Shown here: positions 3,153 through 9,159 of the stretch, one piece after another
Position numbering within the stretch: position 1 is the first letter of the stretch
Layout: each line of letters opens with the position of its first letter
From: Anaerolineae bacterium
GTDB taxonomy: Bacteria; Chloroflexota; Anaerolineae; Caldilineales; Caldilineaceae
DNA length: 64,000 nucleotides
Assembly: GCA_030432295.1 (NCBI GenBank)
Contig: JAUIHI010000021.1
Coordinates: 1 to 64,000, forward strand
Direction of reading: 5' to 3'
The notes under the pieces: generated by a model
What the model saw: the letters and a program-made list of their open reading frames with translations, nothing else
Told to the model about the DNA's origin: nothing
The model's database searches: none
Position numbers and translations under genes: made by a program

Positions 3153-4550
3153 ATGTCTCTCTTTGGCGACCAATTGAAAGCCTTCCGTCAGAAAAGTGCG
3201 GACCCGCAACGGGGCGGCGACCTGACCCAATCCCGCCTGGCCGAGTTGGTATCCGAACGCTTAGGCACGGAGGATGCCCCCCGATTCCAGACCATCAGCA
3301 ACTGGGAGCGGGGCGTCAGCCGTTTGGACGCTTACACAGATCGCAATGTACTAATTGCTATTCTTCAGGTACTCAGCGTATGTGGCGGTCTGCCCAATCG
3401 GGCAACTGCGGATGGCTGGCTGGAGAGCGGCGGCTATGCGCTCCTTTCTGCCCAGGAGTTTCAGCAGATATTTCCCCAGGGCGAGAGCGCACCGGCCCCG
3501 GCCAATGCCCGCTGGGCCGCCCGGCTGGAAGCGCCCACCTACACCCGGCTCTTTGGCGTAGAGGAGACAACCGCCCGCCTGACCGATCTGCTCATCACTC
3601 CCCAGGCTCCCTGGATTTTTGCCCTGGAAGGTTTGGGTGGGCTGGGCAAGACCGCGCTGACCGATCACCTGGCCCGCCAACTGATGCAGGCGGGCCACTT
3701 TGCCGATCTGGCCTGGGTGAGTGCCCGGCCTGTGGCCTTCTCGCTGGACGGCACTGTGCAGCCCGCGCCCCAGCCGGTGCTTTCGGTGGACGAGGCCGGG
3801 CGGGAGCTGGCCGCTCAATTGCTGGGCCGCGAGACAGCCAGTGAACTGGTCTCGCCCCAGGCCCGACAGCAGATGCTGCTGGAACGGCTGCGGGCTGCGC
3901 CCCATCTGCTCGTTATCGACAATCTGGAAAGCCTGACCGATCTGGAACAGTTGCTGCCCCTGTTGCAGCGCTTTGCCAACCCGGCCAAAATCCTGCTCAC
4001 TTCCCGCCAGCGGATGCCAGGGGGCAGCGCTGTCTATCACTGCCCTCTGCCTGGGCTGGAAGAAGCCGATGCCTTGGCGCTGATCCGCTACGAGGCCTCC
4101 ACCGGCAATCTGCCCCACGTATCCGGGGCCACGGATGCCCAACTGCGCCCCCTCTTTCAGGTCATCGGTGGCAATCCCCTGGCCCTGCGTCTGGCCGTGG
4201 GCCAGCTCCATCTGCGGGAACTCACGCGGCTCATCGATGAATGGCAGCAGGCCACGGCCAGCGAGATCGAAGCCTTCTACACATTTATCTACCGCAGTGC
4301 CTGGGATCGGCTGGATGAGACGTGCCGCTACGCCTTTTTGTCTATGCCCCTGGCCGGTGAGCAGGGCGGACGGCTGGCCCATTTGGTCGCCACCAGCGGC
4401 CTGGCAGAGCGGGAGATGCTCGCAGCGCTGGAGCAACTGACTACCCTCAATCTGGTCAACGCCCACGGCACACTGGACGACCGGCGCTTTTCCATCCATA
4501 GTCTGACCCGCTCCTTCTTGCACAGACAGGTGGCCCAGTGGTTGGGCTGA
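3153..4550 (+). CDS. HTH + NB-ARC (STAND) ATPase
   Basis: 465 residues. The first ~95 form an XRE-like helix-turn-helix (SLFGDQLKAFRQK, LTQSRLAELV, TISNWERG). An NB-ARC/AP-ATPase module follows. It has Walker A GLGGLGKTA near residue 160, Walker B HLLVIDNLE near 250, a sensor-like KILLTSRQ near 285, and GNPLALRLAV near 345 in the place of the plant GLPL motif. The stop overlaps by 13 nt the next gene, whose TPRs supply the ligand-sensing part normally fused to such ATPases. Together they look like a STAND signal-transduction regulator split over two frames. No strong ribosome binding site precedes the ATG. The ligand is unknown. Confidence 0.85.
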   Translation: MSLFGDQLKAFRQKSADPQRGGDLTQSRLAELVSERLGTEDAPRFQTISNWERGVSRLDAYTDRNVLIAILQVLSVCGGLPNRATADGWLESGGYALLSAQEFQQIFPQGESAPAPANARWAARLEAPTYTRLFGVEETTARLTDLLITPQAPWIFALEGLGGLGKTALTDHLARQLMQAGHFADLAWVSARPVAFSLDGTVQPAPQPVLSVDEAGRELAAQLLGRETASELVSPQARQQMLLERLRAAPHLLVIDNLESLTDLEQLLPLLQRFANPAKILLTSRQRMPGGSAVYHCPLPGLEEADALALIRYEASTGNLPHVSGATDAQLRPLFQVIGGNPLALRLAVGQLHLRELTRLIDEWQQATASEIEAFYTFIYRSAWDRLDETCRYAFLSMPLAGEQGGRLAHLVATSGLAEREMLAALEQLTTLNLVNAHGTLDDRRFSIHSLTRSFLHRQVAQWLG

Positions 4551-5722
4551 ACCGACAAGAGACGGCCCCAACGACGGGGTATCTGGCCCTCTTTCGCCGC
4601 TTTATCGCCAACAGTCTGGACTTTGCCCTGGCCGCAGTGCAGGGCAGCGCGCCTCTCTCGGAGGACGAACGCAGCGAAGCAATGCGCAGCCTGGCCTATG
4701 GCCTGGAAGAGAAGTCAACACAGCGACAAACGGTCACACTTCTGCTGGCGCTGGCCCCCCACCAACTGCGCGCCGGCGCGGGCGAAGAGTGGACCCACTT
4801 TCTGGAACGGGGGCTGTCGATTACCGCCAGCCCAGCCGACAGAGCCGAGATCGCCTATCAACTGGGCCAACTGGCCCACTATCGAGGCTGCGCGGAAGAG
4901 GCCGAAGCCTGCTTTGCCGACAGCATTGCCGGGTTTGCCCAGGCAGGCCGCATCCGCCAGCAGGCGCGATCGCTGAACCGGTTGGCCTATGCCCTGCGCT
5001 TGCAACAACGCCAGCCGGAAGCCCGTCGTCTGATCGCCGACGCCCTGGGCCTGCTGGACAAATCCGATCCCGAATGGGCCTACAGCCATTTTGTGCTGGG
5101 GGTCATCGCCTTTGACGGGGGCGACAGCCAAGCCGCGGCCGATTTTTTCACCACAGCCCTGGCTGGTTGGGAGTTGCACGGCAGCGACGAACACCGGGCC
5201 GACGGTCTGGTCAGTCTGGCCCCGGCCCTGCGCCGTCTGGGCCGCTACGACGAAGCCATCGCAGCGCTGAAGGAAGCTGGCCAGCACTTTGCCCGCGTCC
5301 GTAGCCCCCGCCGGGAAGGGCTGGTCCATCTGAATTTGGGCAACATCTATCTTTCCCAGGCGCGTTGGGAGGAAGCCCTGGCCCAGTGCCAGTGTGCCGA
5401 ACCACTCTTTCGGCAGGTGGGCGACGGCCTGCACACCGCTATCAACTTCAATAATATGGGCGTGGCCTGTCGCCGATTGGGGCGGCTGGAAGAGGCCGAA
5501 CGGCTCTTTCTTCTCGCCATCGCCGGTTTAGAGGCGGTGGATCAGCCGGTCCATCACATCAACGCGCTGGATGGGCTGGGCAACACCTACCGGGATCAGG
5601 GCCGCATTCCACTGGCCCGCCAGACCTATCAGCGGGCACTGGCGCGGGTGGACGAAGCCGCAGACCCCGCACCTCTACAGCATTTGGCAGATGAAGTGCG
5701 GGCACATTTGGCTGGGCTGTGA
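4538..5722 (+). CDS. TPR-repeat protein, partner of the NB-ARC gene
   Basis: 394 residues, almost entirely tetratricopeptide repeats. Repeated A...G..Y..A...L..A units include YDEAIAALKEAG, WEEALAQCQCAE, LEEAERLFLLAI and IPLARQTYQRAL. The GTG at 4538 lies inside the end of the NB-ARC gene in a different frame (overlap 13 nt). The two could be translationally coupled, joined by a frameshift, or an ancestral fusion split by an indel. The first ~50 residues (LALFRRFIANSLDFALAA) look like the linker normally found between NB-ARC and TPRs, which favours one functional unit. It probably acts in the cytoplasm as a sensor. Confidence 0.8.
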   Translation: MVGLNRQETAPTTGYLALFRRFIANSLDFALAAVQGSAPLSEDERSEAMRSLAYGLEEKSTQRQTVTLLLALAPHQLRAGAGEEWTHFLERGLSITASPADRAEIAYQLGQLAHYRGCAEEAEACFADSIAGFAQAGRIRQQARSLNRLAYALRLQQRQPEARRLIADALGLLDKSDPEWAYSHFVLGVIAFDGGDSQAAADFFTTALAGWELHGSDEHRADGLVSLAPALRRLGRYDEAIAALKEAGQHFARVRSPRREGLVHLNLGNIYLSQARWEEALAQCQCAEPLFRQVGDGLHTAINFNNMGVACRRLGRLEEAERLFLLAIAGLEAVDQPVHHINALDGLGNTYRDQGRIPLARQTYQRALARVDEAADPAPLQHLADEVRAHLAGL

Positions 5723-5736
5723 CCGCTGCCACACAT

Positions 5737-5913
5737 TCACCCAACAAAGCCGTCACCGCCGCCTTCCTGGGCCAGGGGCATTTGCCGGAATGTGCTTGCA
5801 CGGCTGCCGCTCTCGGCGCTGGATAGCAGGGGTGCGCCCACGCCTACAGCCATCAACAGAAAACAGGCAACGGCTGTCCACACTTTGAAGCGTCTGCTTT
5901 GATTGCCGAACAT
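5737..5913 (-). CDS. 58-residue secreted peptide precursor
   Basis: This small gene lies on the opposite strand, between two regulator genes. The product begins MFGNQSRRFKVWTA, continues with a hydrophobic core VACFLLMAVGVGAPLL, and has a plausible signal peptidase I site SSA|ES after residue 33. That leaves a ~25-residue polar tail ending GGGDGFVG. A perfect Shine-Dalgarno GGAGGT (5922-5927) sits 8 nt before the ATG, the best in the neighbourhood. The start, the signal-peptide architecture and the compact stop argue for a real gene. It could be an exported signalling peptide sensed by the adjacent TPR/NB-ARC or HTH proteins, but that is inference. Homologues are unknown to me. Confidence 0.6.
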   Translation of the reverse strand: MFGNQSRRFKVWTAVACFLLMAVGVGAPLLSSAESGSRASTFRQMPLAQEGGGDGFVG

Positions 5914-6108
5914 CTCAATGTACCTCCACTGGATGGAGATTCATCGAGAAAGGGATCCCGACCGCCGGTGTGGCGGCCCACGCGTGTCCCTCAATGAATC
6001 GGTTGGGTCCGATTCTGCGCCGGCTCGAATGGTTTTAGTTTTACACAGAGACGGCTGTCTGTCACCGACCAGAAGCGTCAAAGAAAGCCGTCAAACCCGA
6101 CATTTGCT
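5914..6108. other. Divergent intergenic region with dyad symmetry
   Basis: This stretch separates the 58-residue peptide gene (leftwards) from the membrane HTH gene (rightwards). It contains a small hairpin CCGCC/GGCGG around 5962-5976 and an imperfect dyad (GATTCATCGAG near 5939 against CTCAATGAATC near 5990). These could be operator or leader structures. No clear promoter hexamers were identified. Confidence 0.3.
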
Positions 6109-9100
6109 ATGCCAAACCCAATCCGACTGTCGATTCTCATCGAAATGCGCGAAGCCATCGGGCTGACCCAGGCCGACGCGGCTGAACTGTGCGGTCTGGC
6201 CGGCCGCCAGAGCCGCAAAACCCTGGCCGCCTGGGAATTGGGCCAGTCCACGCCTCGCCAGCGTTTTCGCCTGCCCTTTGCCGTCTATCTGCTGCGGGAT
6301 CTGAAGCTGAGCCAGGATTTGGCGCGCTTTGATACGATATTTGAGATGCTGACAGAAGAGTGGGGATGGCCGCCGCTGGAAGCAGACGAGCGGGCGGATT
6401 GTTTGCGGGCAGCCCAGGTGGCTTCCGGGCGGGTGGCACTTTCACCGGTCACAGACAGCCCAGACCCGGCTGCCAATGCGAAGAAAGTCGCGTCGGATAC
6501 AGACAGGGGAGCGAAGGACAGATCCTGGCGGACGCGGACAAAACTGCTCCCGGTGTTAGGTGGTCTGGTCGTGCTTGCCATCCTGGCGATCTTTGCCAGT
6601 CGCTTTTCGGATCGTTCTGCGCTCAACAAACTTCCGGTCCCGGCGAGTACCCCGCCAGCCGTTGTGCTTGCCCCTTCGTCTTCTCCCATCTCCCCGACAT
6701 CGACACCCCAGGCTTTTGCCAATGGCAGCTTCGAGGCGGGCCTTGCTCCCTGGTATCCGGTGGAGGATGGAGAGTGCCCGTTGGAACTCATCAACGATTC
6801 CACACAGGCCAGGGCAGGCGACACCTTTCTGCGTATCGTCGATCCGGGGGAGGGATGCATCTCCCTGCGTCAGGACTTCGGCCAATTGATGGGGGGCGTG
6901 GTCCACGTGGCGTTCTATGTGCGCAGCCTGCACACCCATCCCACCCGTGGGACGCTGAGCCTGTCGGCCATTCAGAACCGGACAGATGAAAGTGCACAGC
7001 AGCGAGCTATTGTTCACTTCAAGCTACAGGACAAAGAGTGGCACTGTGTGGAAACCGTGGGGACCCTGAACCAGTCAGGGGATAAGATGCTGCGGGCAGA
7101 ACTCTCGTTTGATCCGGCGCAAGGAGAGTTGGATGTAGACGATGTCAAGATTGGTTTTGGGGACGGCGTTCTTTGCCCGCCGCAGTCCCCCAAACTTCAG
7201 GGGGGAGACTTTGAGTATGACGGGACCGCCAGCGCCTGGCATTGGTTCGAGACCCCCTGTCATTTTGCTGTCATCCGCGGCAAGGAGTGGGCCTATTCGG
7301 GGGAAAACTATCTCTCTGTCCAGCGCACACCTGATTGCAATTCTTTCTATCAGGATGTTACAGTGCCCTCTTTTGGAAGAGACCAGGCATACACATTGAG
7401 TCTGTATGTGCGCGGCCCCCTGACCCAGACACTCCAGGGCCGTATTGCCCTACACGCGATGGGTACTGGTCTGTCAACAGAAACAGAGGGAACCCCTTTC
7501 ATCGCCGGGCCAGAGTGGCGCTGTATACAGGCGGTGCTTCCTGCCGTGGACCGGGGCTATAACAAACTTCGCGGCGAAATCTATTTGGACAGTTTATTCA
7601 ACGAGGGCGCTTATGCGTTTGATAGCATCCAATTGAGTGTGGGCGCTGATCCAGGCTGTTCCTCGCAGTCGATGGCCTTGATCAACCCCGGATTTGAACT
7701 CAACCCCAACTTTCCGATCGGGTGGAAAGGTGGCAATCTCCTGTGCGATTTGCAGGTGATTGCAGACAAGACCGCGGCTTTCGATGGCGCGGCTTTCCTG
7801 GAGGTCAGGCGCGGCAACGACGATTGCATTTCCGTTTTCCAGGACGTAGTGGCCCGGCCCTCTCCTGGCGAAACGGTTCGCGGCGGGGTCTGGCTGCGCG
7901 GGTCTGGGGTGGATGTCAATTTGGTGCTCAGAGCGATGGATGGACCCAATGGAGCCGAATGGACCGACAATCCGGTGACATTGTCCGGCAATGGTTGGCA
8001 GTGTGTGGAAGTCGCCCATCGGGTCGAGCGGGAGGGGCATCAGCTTTTGCGCCTGGAACTCTATCTGAACACACCGGGTGATCTACCCTATCAGATCGAC
8101 GGGGCACAGCTAAGGCGCAACGCAGAAACCCTCTGCCCTCAGACAGATTTGGCCCTGCGCAACGCGCTCTTTGAGCCGGACACCGACTTTTCCTATCCTG
8201 CGGGTTCCGTGGGCACAGCGACGATTGCACACAATTGGGGTGCAACGGAAGCACCTGCGGGCCTGCTGGCTTTTTGGCTCTCCGACGCGCCAAATGGGGC
8301 GCCATTGGACCCGGCTTTGGTCAAACAGAGCCACTTTCCCGCGCTGAAGCCGGGCACAAGTACGTCAACTCTCTTTGGCGAAGGCCGGGTTCCCGCTGAG
8401 CTTCCACCAGGCGACTATTTTGTCGTGTGGGATCTGCCGCCCATTGCCGGGGTGGTGGACACCCGACCGGACAACAATCGATTTTCCCTGCCCATCCGCA
8501 TTCGTCCCTGCGAGACGGGGACTGTCTACTGCGATGTACCGTCCACCTATTGGGCTTTCAACGAAATTGAACTGTGGCACAGGGCAGGCATCACCAACGG
8601 TTGCCGAAGTGGCACCACTCCGTATCAGGACCGGCCCTTCTGTCCCGATCTGATGACGAACCGTTCCGAATTGACTGTCTTTTTTCTGCGCTCCCTGAAC
8701 GGCGGAGACTTCACGCCTACGGGCAACTTCGAAGGTACTTTCGCCGATGTATTTATCGATATGGCCCACAACCGGGGCTATTGGATCGAAGCCTTCCACC
8801 AGTTGGGCGTAGACGTCTCCACCGAACGCTGCGCGCCAAGCGGCTCCGATGAAATCTACTTCTGCCCGGACCTTCTTTTGACCCGACGGGAACTGCTGCT
8901 CTATCTGGCCCAAGCCCAGGGCTGGGAACTCTCGCCAGTGCAGGGCGATCTCTTCTCGGACATCGGCGAGGAGATTCCCGCCAACCGGGCCATCGAATAC
9001 GCGGCCCGGCAGGCGATTCTTGCCCCCGGTGATCCCTTCTGCCCACCCCTGCCCACCGGTCCCCGCTTCTGCCCGGACGAGCCAGCCCGCCGCGCCTTTG

Positions 9101-9159
9101 TGGCCGCAGTGATGGTGCGGGCCTTTGCCTCTGAGTCTGAACAGTCTGTATCGGAATAG
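6109..9159 (+). CDS. Transmembrane HTH protein with outer carbohydrate-binding-like, CARDB-like and S-layer homology domains
   Basis: 1,016 residues. Residues ~8-60 form an XRE-type helix-turn-helix (IGLTQADAAELCGL, TLAAWELGQSTPRQ). One transmembrane helix lies at ~146-163 (LLPVLGGLVVLAILAIF), followed by a Pro/Ser/Thr linker. Three similar beta modules start near 202, 362 and 522, each opening with an (N/G)G.FE or NPGFE motif and resembling carbohydrate-binding CBM4/9-like folds. A CARDB-like domain starts near 678 (TDLALRN, ending DTRPDNNRF). Residues 809-1016 hold three SLH-like repeats (FPD/CPD, ..TRAEL-like) rich in cysteine. The N-terminus would be cytoplasmic and DNA-binding, with the rest outside in the cell wall layer. 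It could couple cell-surface state to transcription. No clear ribosome binding site precedes the ATG. Confidence 0.8.
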   Translation: MPNPIRLSILIEMREAIGLTQADAAELCGLAGRQSRKTLAAWELGQSTPRQRFRLPFAVYLLRDLKLSQDLARFDTIFEMLTEEWGWPPLEADERADCLRAAQVASGRVALSPVTDSPDPAANAKKVASDTDRGAKDRSWRTRTKLLPVLGGLVVLAILAIFASRFSDRSALNKLPVPASTPPAVVLAPSSSPISPTSTPQAFANGSFEAGLAPWYPVEDGECPLELINDSTQARAGDTFLRIVDPGEGCISLRQDFGQLMGGVVHVAFYVRSLHTHPTRGTLSLSAIQNRTDESAQQRAIVHFKLQDKEWHCVETVGTLNQSGDKMLRAELSFDPAQGELDVDDVKIGFGDGVLCPPQSPKLQGGDFEYDGTASAWHWFETPCHFAVIRGKEWAYSGENYLSVQRTPDCNSFYQDVTVPSFGRDQAYTLSLYVRGPLTQTLQGRIALHAMGTGLSTETEGTPFIAGPEWRCIQAVLPAVDRGYNKLRGEIYLDSLFNEGAYAFDSIQLSVGADPGCSSQSMALINPGFELNPNFPIGWKGGNLLCDLQVIADKTAAFDGAAFLEVRRGNDDCISVFQDVVARPSPGETVRGGVWLRGSGVDVNLVLRAMDGPNGAEWTDNPVTLSGNGWQCVEVAHRVEREGHQLLRLELYLNTPGDLPYQIDGAQLRRNAETLCPQTDLALRNALFEPDTDFSYPAGSVGTATIAHNWGATEAPAGLLAFWLSDAPNGAPLDPALVKQSHFPALKPGTSTSTLFGEGRVPAELPPGDYFVVWDLPPIAGVVDTRPDNNRFSLPIRIRPCETGTVYCDVPSTYWAFNEIELWHRAGITNGCRSGTTPYQDRPFCPDLMTNRSELTVFFLRSLNGGDFTPTGNFEGTFADVFIDMAHNRGYWIEAFHQLGVDVSTERCAPSGSDEIYFCPDLLLTRRELLLYLAQAQGWELSPVQGDLFSDIGEEIPANRAIEYAARQAILAPGDPFCPPLPTGPRFCPDEPARRAFVAAVMVRAFASESEQSVSE

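Follow-up and report, generated by a model that had tools for sequence, protein, structure and literature searches.

The window, by which we mean the whole 64,000-nucleotide stretch of DNA analysed here, carries a gene for the 58-aa precursor of a predicted secreted peptide at 5737..5913 on the minus strand (coordinates of the CDS including its stop codon), flanked on both sides by regulatory genes on the plus strand. On one side, a gene for an NB-ARC (STAND) protein of 465 aa (3153..4550, plus strand; NB-ARC, 1.4e-11) starts an operon with a gene for a 394-aa TPR protein (4538..5722, plus strand; Pfam TPR_12, 1.6e-30), which is convergent with the peptide gene and is the proposed peptide-sensing module. 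What had been described as one STAND/TPR regulator is a pair of overlapping genes, NB-ARC at 3153-4550 and TPR at 4538-5722. On the other side, a divergent gene at 6109..9159 (plus strand) encodes an HTH protein (HTH_3, 1.7e-4) with a TM segment and a large extracellular part, and is the variable partner discussed below. The placement of the peptide gene on the strand opposite both regulators agrees with the original prediction. Further upstream, between an ORF with a WD40 tail and the NB-ARC gene, positions 1298-2470 of the window hold direct repeats of ~200 nt in three families of 2-4 copies that are 61-98% identical.

The peptide frame has 58 codons, begins with ATG and translates as MFGNQSRRFKVWTAVACFLLMAVGVGAPLLSSAESGSRASTFRQMPLAQEGGGDGFVG. 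A GGAGGT lies exactly 8 nt before the ATG, as predicted. Residues 1-33 (5815..5913, minus strand) form a predicted signal sequence with a basic n-region and a hydrophobic stretch of ~19 residues followed by the anticipated SSA|ES site, an assignment that rests on sequence and on purifying selection. The C-terminal tail QEGGGDGFVG (5740..5769, minus strand) is the presumed core of the mature peptide. When the 58-aa sequence alone was used as a query, only two full-length orthologs were recovered, at G005:C3:57299-57478 (76%, E=2.5e-23) and G001:C19:590-763 (71%, E=2.3e-22), both from congeneric Caldilineaceae MAGs (ACE_CHL8, JAHBVF010000011.1, and CHL15, JAHDWH010000299.1, respectively). Both orthologs are placed equivalently, with a TPR gene on one side and an HTH gene on the other, and their cleavage-type sites read SSA|ES (G005a) and ASA|ES (G001a). 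Comparison of the window peptide with these orthologs gave dN/dS of 0.36-0.48, rather than the random pattern of synonymous and non-synonymous change named beforehand as evidence against the gene. Substitutions cluster in the linker, while the signal (alignment residues 1-34) and the tail, QEGGGDGF[V/T]G, are retained. Given the orthologs at the same place, the dN/dS values, and a family of peptides at the same position under a common RNA leader, the comparative evidence indicates that the ORF at 5737-5913 is a genuine conserved coding gene.

The original prediction looked to other Chloroflexota for the peptide and its genomic position, and a family was found there, opposite NB-ARC/TPR genes. 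This family comprises about 38 loci in 22 genomes from five Anaerolineae families, all of the genomes compared being MAGs, and its members share one plan: a length of 48-65 aa, a hydrophobic signal at the N-terminus, and a diversified C-terminus that is short, rich in Gly and often flanked by Cys. The family was revealed by scanning the flanks of TPR homologs for small ORFs on the opposite strand in a tail-to-tail arrangement, which yielded peptides with Cys-flanked Gly-rich tails such as ..THACGQQGSGC, ..AHACGGQSGGC and ..AACANGNTGGDC. A peptide HMM built from seven of these flank-found peptides, without neighbour information, recovered 13 further loci, including a second copy in the window's own genome (G000:C16, tail CGSQGGGC), one in G015, and others in family f45, where up to four peptide copies occur per genome.

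Tails are kept among orthologs and differ among paralogs of the same genome, as with QEGGGDGFVG and CGSQGGGC in the window's own genome. Within the f45 peptides, mean entropy is 1.85 bits in the variable inter-Cys loop, 0.88 in the well-conserved signal and 0.10-0.26 in the nearly invariant residues flanking the loop. A Cys-x5-11-Cys arrangement is present in the tails of most relatives. In these Cys-type peptides an AxA-like site lies ~15 residues beyond the hydrophobic core, a distance that would allow for cleavage by a second protease or for anchoring in the membrane. The "..AC" of these tails was also considered as a lipoprotein signal and rejected, there being no [LVI] at lipobox position -3 and the site being too distant from the hydrophobic core. 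Two peptide genes have no leader RNA (the second copy in G246:C32, and G236:C363). Among individual loci, L096 shows a tandem duplication of the peptide gene (1153-1308 and 1498-1653) in which the second copy is without leader RNA, and a leaderless peptide gene at L086:1513-1668 adjoins a truncated TPR gene.

Throughout the family, conservation of an RNA-like pattern extends over the 80-90 nt that precede the start codon, a feature absent from the earlier description of this locus. In the window, this structured 5' leader RNA spans 5911..6000 on the minus strand (model match 5911-5992, with the 5' strand of an alternative helix extending to 6000) and scores 101.5 and 86.5 bits with covariance models R1 and R2, respectively. 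R1, built from six leaders and searched against 61 relatives, gave 15 matches, each directly upstream of a peptide gene and seven of them at loci not recovered with the peptide profile. When 396 genomes of the class were searched with the refined model R2, there were 24 matches in 17 genomes, which added families f31, f41 and f21. Each R2 match precedes a peptide gene, visible by its first codons only in one case at a contig end, and the start codon lies at the end of the model or within about 12 nt of it. The RNA model holds no peptide information, and at all 13 of the new loci with complete flanks that it found, the leader is followed by a secreted-type peptide of 48-65 aa; by comparison, 6% of SD-preceded ATGs start such an ORF in the background.

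Most of the RNA-found peptides have no detectable sequence profile in common with the window peptide, yet follow the same plan. Their tails include ..ITPQNEPDPGFIG (G020), ..QPNDDPEPGFGG (G014), ..ADGGGGQHGG (G019), ..SANEPHGGGG and ..ADEPPGGH (both G306), and ..PNDPCHDTTCG (G075). The G020 and G014 tails resemble that of the window peptide, with QNEPDPGFIG and NDDPEPGFGG, respectively, standing beneath the same leader RNA in the place of QEGGGDGFVG. In a phylum-wide sample of 400 genomes, the leader model matched only the window's own genome, indicating that the RNA is confined to part of the class. Among the 4227 models of Rfam 15, none matched the window leader at E<=10 and none gave a credible match to homologous leaders. 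Matches to microRNA-type models were rejected as the product of a long hairpin in L036 that mimics them; this 85-nt near-perfect hairpin (L036:269-353) may represent a small element of the mobile or repeat kind. A second, related leader type with a low score against the main model lies upstream of the peptide gene at six f45 loci (L088, L089, L090, L093, L094 and L095) and has the palindrome YTCGCGAR, a GGYTGA-type hairpin and a short hairpin of the GAGGGATCCCTC type.

In 5' to 3' order, the leader consists of P1, which closes an internal loop containing a palindrome, the P2 hairpin, and a stem that reaches the start codon and has the Shine-Dalgarno (SD) sequence within it. Across 21 leaders, 14 of 22 pairs changed on both sides, and 41 compensated cells were counted against 14.3 in shuffles (0/500) and at most 8 in slid versions; these pair counts are inflated by an alignment (A14) fitted to the model structure, and the slid and shuffled controls lie far lower. 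MAFFT alone misaligned the leaders, and a second alignment with hand-trimmed loops (A8) supports no claim made here. The P2 hairpin, GGCCGCC..GGCGGTC in the window (5960..5978, minus strand), is covered by the same 21 sequences, in which six of its seven pairs changed on both sides; an arm-swap test of P2, whose arms had been chosen visually for being complementary, carries no weight here. The internal loop holds the palindrome CACGCGTG in the window (5979..5986, minus strand), and a palindrome of at least 6 nt is found there in 36/36 leaders, compared with 22% in shuffles, although its sequence varies from leader to leader. Folding of the palindrome as a hairpin was rejected for most leaders, the loop being too short; it may be a DNA operator, an RNA dimer element, or part of the RNA.

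The stem at the start codon pairs CTCGATG (5942-5948) with CATTGAG (5914-5920) and places an inner stem over GGAGGT (5922-5927), the whole stem-loop occupying 5914..5948 on the minus strand. CTCGATG is also complementary to sequence upstream of P1, where, in the window, its downstream partner CATTGAG recurs letter for letter. The resulting alternative helix, predicted by forced folding and partner swaps, joins GATTCATTGAGGGA (5987-6000) to TTTCTCGATGAATC (5938-5951) and spans 5938..6000 on the minus strand. When each fold was forced on the window leader, the sequestering fold reached -42.3 kcal/mol with the SD fully buried and the alternative fold -41.8 kcal/mol with the SD unpaired at 5/6 nt, a difference of 0.5 kcal/mol. 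Among 25 leaders the contrast was weaker than in the window (mean SD-free 0.35 vs 0.10), with a median advantage of 2.5 kcal/mol for the sequestered fold. In 20 of these 25 leaders, the two helices share nucleotides for which they compete. In a partner-swap test, the alternative helix scored 15.2 with its own partner and 12.5+-0.5 with swapped partners, and the sequestering helix 13.7 and 12.1+-0.4. When the sequestering stem was tested simply, in single sequences, most leaders gave no significant result, and support for this stem comes from covariation and partner swaps rather than from single folds. The leader has the layout of a translational switch, with predicted mutually exclusive helices of which one would bury the SD. 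In this it shows two hallmarks of riboswitches, a structure backed by covariation and mutually exclusive helices in the expression platform; its differences from known translational riboswitches and bistable leaders are that it has no family in Rfam 15, is always found upstream of a secreted peptide gene, and carries a palindromic internal loop.

A gene of the TPR family, called with a profile of TPR proteins, is convergent with the peptide gene at 25 of the 26 independently found loci (13/13 profile-found and 12/13 RNA-found), the match at L086 and L144 being a truncated or broken frame. The exception, L138, has no TPR-family gene within 1.5 kb; there, a leader RNA and a small peptide ending ..GGPSDGHCG (G017:C137:83154-83233) stand without a nearby TPR gene and could represent an orphan signal gene. 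Just two full-length TPR-family proteins are encoded in the window's own genome, one in the window (1.7e-139) and one beside the second peptide (2.4e-133), and each is accompanied by a leader and a peptide; the next match in this genome (2.9e-35) is partial and generic. Searched against the PDB, the TPR profile matched peptide-binding TPR proteins and, among regulators, AfsR (2e-20, the best bacterial regulator), RapI (2.5e-11) and NprR (about 1e-10), placing the protein nearer to LGN, KLC and AfsR than to RapI or NprR. A structure model (mean pLDDT 78.7) was closest to LGN-peptide complexes and also resembled Rap bound to the pheromone CSF (4gyo), the model being derived from a single sequence and the TPR similarity being generic. 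The TPR gene belongs to a dedicated family with a predicted peptide-binding type of TPR fold.

The NB-ARC gene lies upstream of the TPR gene and usually overlaps it, and in G015 HTH, NB-ARC and TPR are fused in a single 844-aa protein. No HTH was detected above threshold in the NB-ARC protein of the window (3153-4550), whose N-terminus is XRE-like by eye only; NB-ARC homologs at many other loci carry an N-terminal HTH of the XRE type (HTH_31) or the Sigma70_r4 type. The divergent neighbour is usually a DNA-binding regulator of a type that varies by locus: an HTH protein with TM segment and extracellular part (the window), an HTH-NB-ARC protein (G005:C3), an NB-ARC and TPR pair, an ATPase-like protein with Trans_reg_C, or an FHA protein with Trans_reg_C. 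The window protein (6109-9159) and its counterpart in G005 (L027:9675-11162) have orthologous HTH N-termini (69%) and swapped C-terminal parts, so that the conserved HTH head leads into a TM segment and extracellular part in the window and into an NB-ARC domain in G005. In f45 and G015 the divergent partner is ATPase-like (SGxVVGLxGxGKSNLL) with a C-terminal Trans_reg_C winged helix, an assignment tested in L111:4190-5650 and made by sequence resemblance in L112, L114, L118, L121 and L110. No transporter or protease was found to be conserved in the cassette.

The gene, its family, the pairing of peptide with regulator and the covariation of the leader are established by sequence comparison. 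The reading that we favour, with somewhat better than even confidence, is that the neighbouring NB-ARC/TPR transcription factor reads the exported peptide as a signal and that translation of the peptide is gated by the bistable, riboswitch-like leader. We infer export, processing, re-import, binding and transcriptional output, which would proceed as follows. The precursor would be exported by Sec and processed down to the final ~8-13 residues, QEGGGDGFVG in the window, with the Cys-x5-11-Cys tails of most relatives perhaps forming a disulfide ring. The mature peptide would re-enter the cytoplasm and bind the superhelical TPR protein, which would in turn switch its NB-ARC partner from one nucleotide state to another. 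Transcription, probably including that of the shared intergenic region, would then be altered by the DNA-binding NB-ARC protein, the divergent HTH regulator, or both. In the off state of the leader, CTCGATG would pair with the downstream CATTGAG and bury the SD; in the on state it would pair with the upstream copy of CATTGAG. A ligand, protein or RNA acting at the internal loop could set the balance between the two helices, in which case the output of signal would be gated at translation as well.

Several other explanations of the cassette can be weighed against this signalling circuit. Type I toxins such as Hok and TisB are of similar size and have an N-terminal hydrophobic helix, and the structured, SD-sequestering mRNA would also suit a membrane-damaging peptide from an immunity module, or from one akin to type I toxin-antitoxin systems, that is silenced by its leader (possibly with an antisense RNA) and triggered by NB-ARC/TPR. 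NB-ARC-like STAND proteins are common in conflict systems (PMC7159879), and their presence here fits such a module as well. However, the conserved parts of the peptide are the signal and a polar Gly/Cys tail, a pore would have no need of tails that diversify between paralogs, the partners are DNA-binding regulators, and PADLOC returned no specific match, only a generic TPR model; we consider a toxin unlikely. The nearest NCBIfam models of the TPR protein, FxSxx_TPR (3.7e-12) and HaaT (1e-10), raise a secreted antimicrobial or RiPP-like precursor, with NB-ARC/TPR as pathway regulator or maturation partner as in the actinobacterial FxSxx-COOH/HaaT systems (NF040586, NF041717), which likewise encode a peptide together with an NB-ARC/TPR protein. 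Yet the scores fall far under the cut-offs (45.6 vs 300 bits and 40.4 vs 1125), no radical SAM or other modifying enzyme was seen among those neighbours that were scanned, and the cassette differs in having a Sec-type signal in place of a RiPP leader, no FxSxx end, and a bistable RNA leader; we consider this origin rather improbable.

The original prediction also named the membrane HTH protein as a possible reader of the peptide, and a related possibility is that the peptide acts in cis, as an arrest peptide of the membrane- or secretion-sensing type, or remains membrane-bound and serves that protein as a ligand. The domain make-up of the window's divergent partner, with HTH, TM segment and extracellular part, and the conservation of its HTH N-terminus in congeners would be in keeping with such a role. 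This partner is not constant, however; other regulators hold its place at other loci while the TPR gene remains, and an arrest peptide would have no downstream gene in its operon to control. We regard action in cis or as a membrane ligand as distinctly improbable. The proposal that the peptide is a signal for the adjacent NB-ARC/TPR pair fared better, being strongly supported on comparative grounds by one-to-one pairing across five families, diversification of tails and a dedicated TPR family; its placement within RRNPP quorum sensing did not hold.

The cassette does resemble the RRNPP systems of Bacillota (Rap-Phr, NprR, PlcR-PapR, Rgg and AimR) in pairing a small secreted-type propeptide with an adjoining TPR protein, and in combining a conserved, predicted export signal with a diversified C-terminal tail. 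RRNPP_detector uses five signature criteria, most of which formally describe the cassette (PMC10075063): the propeptide, at 58 aa in the window and 48-65 aa in the family, falls within 10-100 aa; the TPR protein, at 394 aa, falls within the 250-500 aa expected of a receptor with TPRs, though it makes up the latter half of a pair with NB-ARC; and the two genes are adjacent at 25/26 loci. Homology to the RRNPP family without NB-ARC was not found, the TPR protein having an NB-ARC partner or fusion and being closer to LGN, KLC and AfsR. Since the receptor candidate is a STAND protein, nearer to AfsR and the FxSxx-TPR proteins, we do not file the cassette as RRNPP, from which it also differs by the location of the TPRs in a second gene (fused in G015), the structured leader RNA and the many Cys-flanked tails. 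With the STAND transcription factors AfsR and MalT it shares the architecture of HTH, NB-ARC(-like) domain and TPRs, although we know of no peptide partner gene for either. MalT is activated when an inducer occupies its sensor domain (PMC4381067); in the cassette, the ligand is proposed to be a peptide.

The cassette is apparently common to filamentous-type Chloroflexota and undescribed, and it has the look of a novel type of circuit for signalling between cells. As the original prediction had supposed, a literature search, with limited coverage of subscription journals, found no published description of such a system in Chloroflexota, and to our knowledge this would be the first peptide communication system described in the phylum. 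Peptide signalling through intracellular TPR receptors is, so far as we are aware, known essentially from Bacillota, and we know of little work on signalling in filamentous Chloroflexota. These organisms are abundant in wastewater sludge (PMC10746286). The cassette offers a large set of matched candidate peptide-receptor pairs in Caldilineaceae and related Chloroflexota families, a new switch-like RNA that can serve as a search handle, and peptides that are directly testable with their receptors, such as QEGGGDGFVG and CGSQGGGC. In its broadest form, to which we give even odds, the proposal is that Chloroflexota communicate by peptides through STAND (NB-ARC/TPR) factors, with several channels per genome and an output gated by an undescribed class of riboswitch-like RNA. 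NB-ARC proteins are kin of plant and animal immune receptors, and the circuit, if true, would link NB-ARC proteins to the recognition of self-made peptides.
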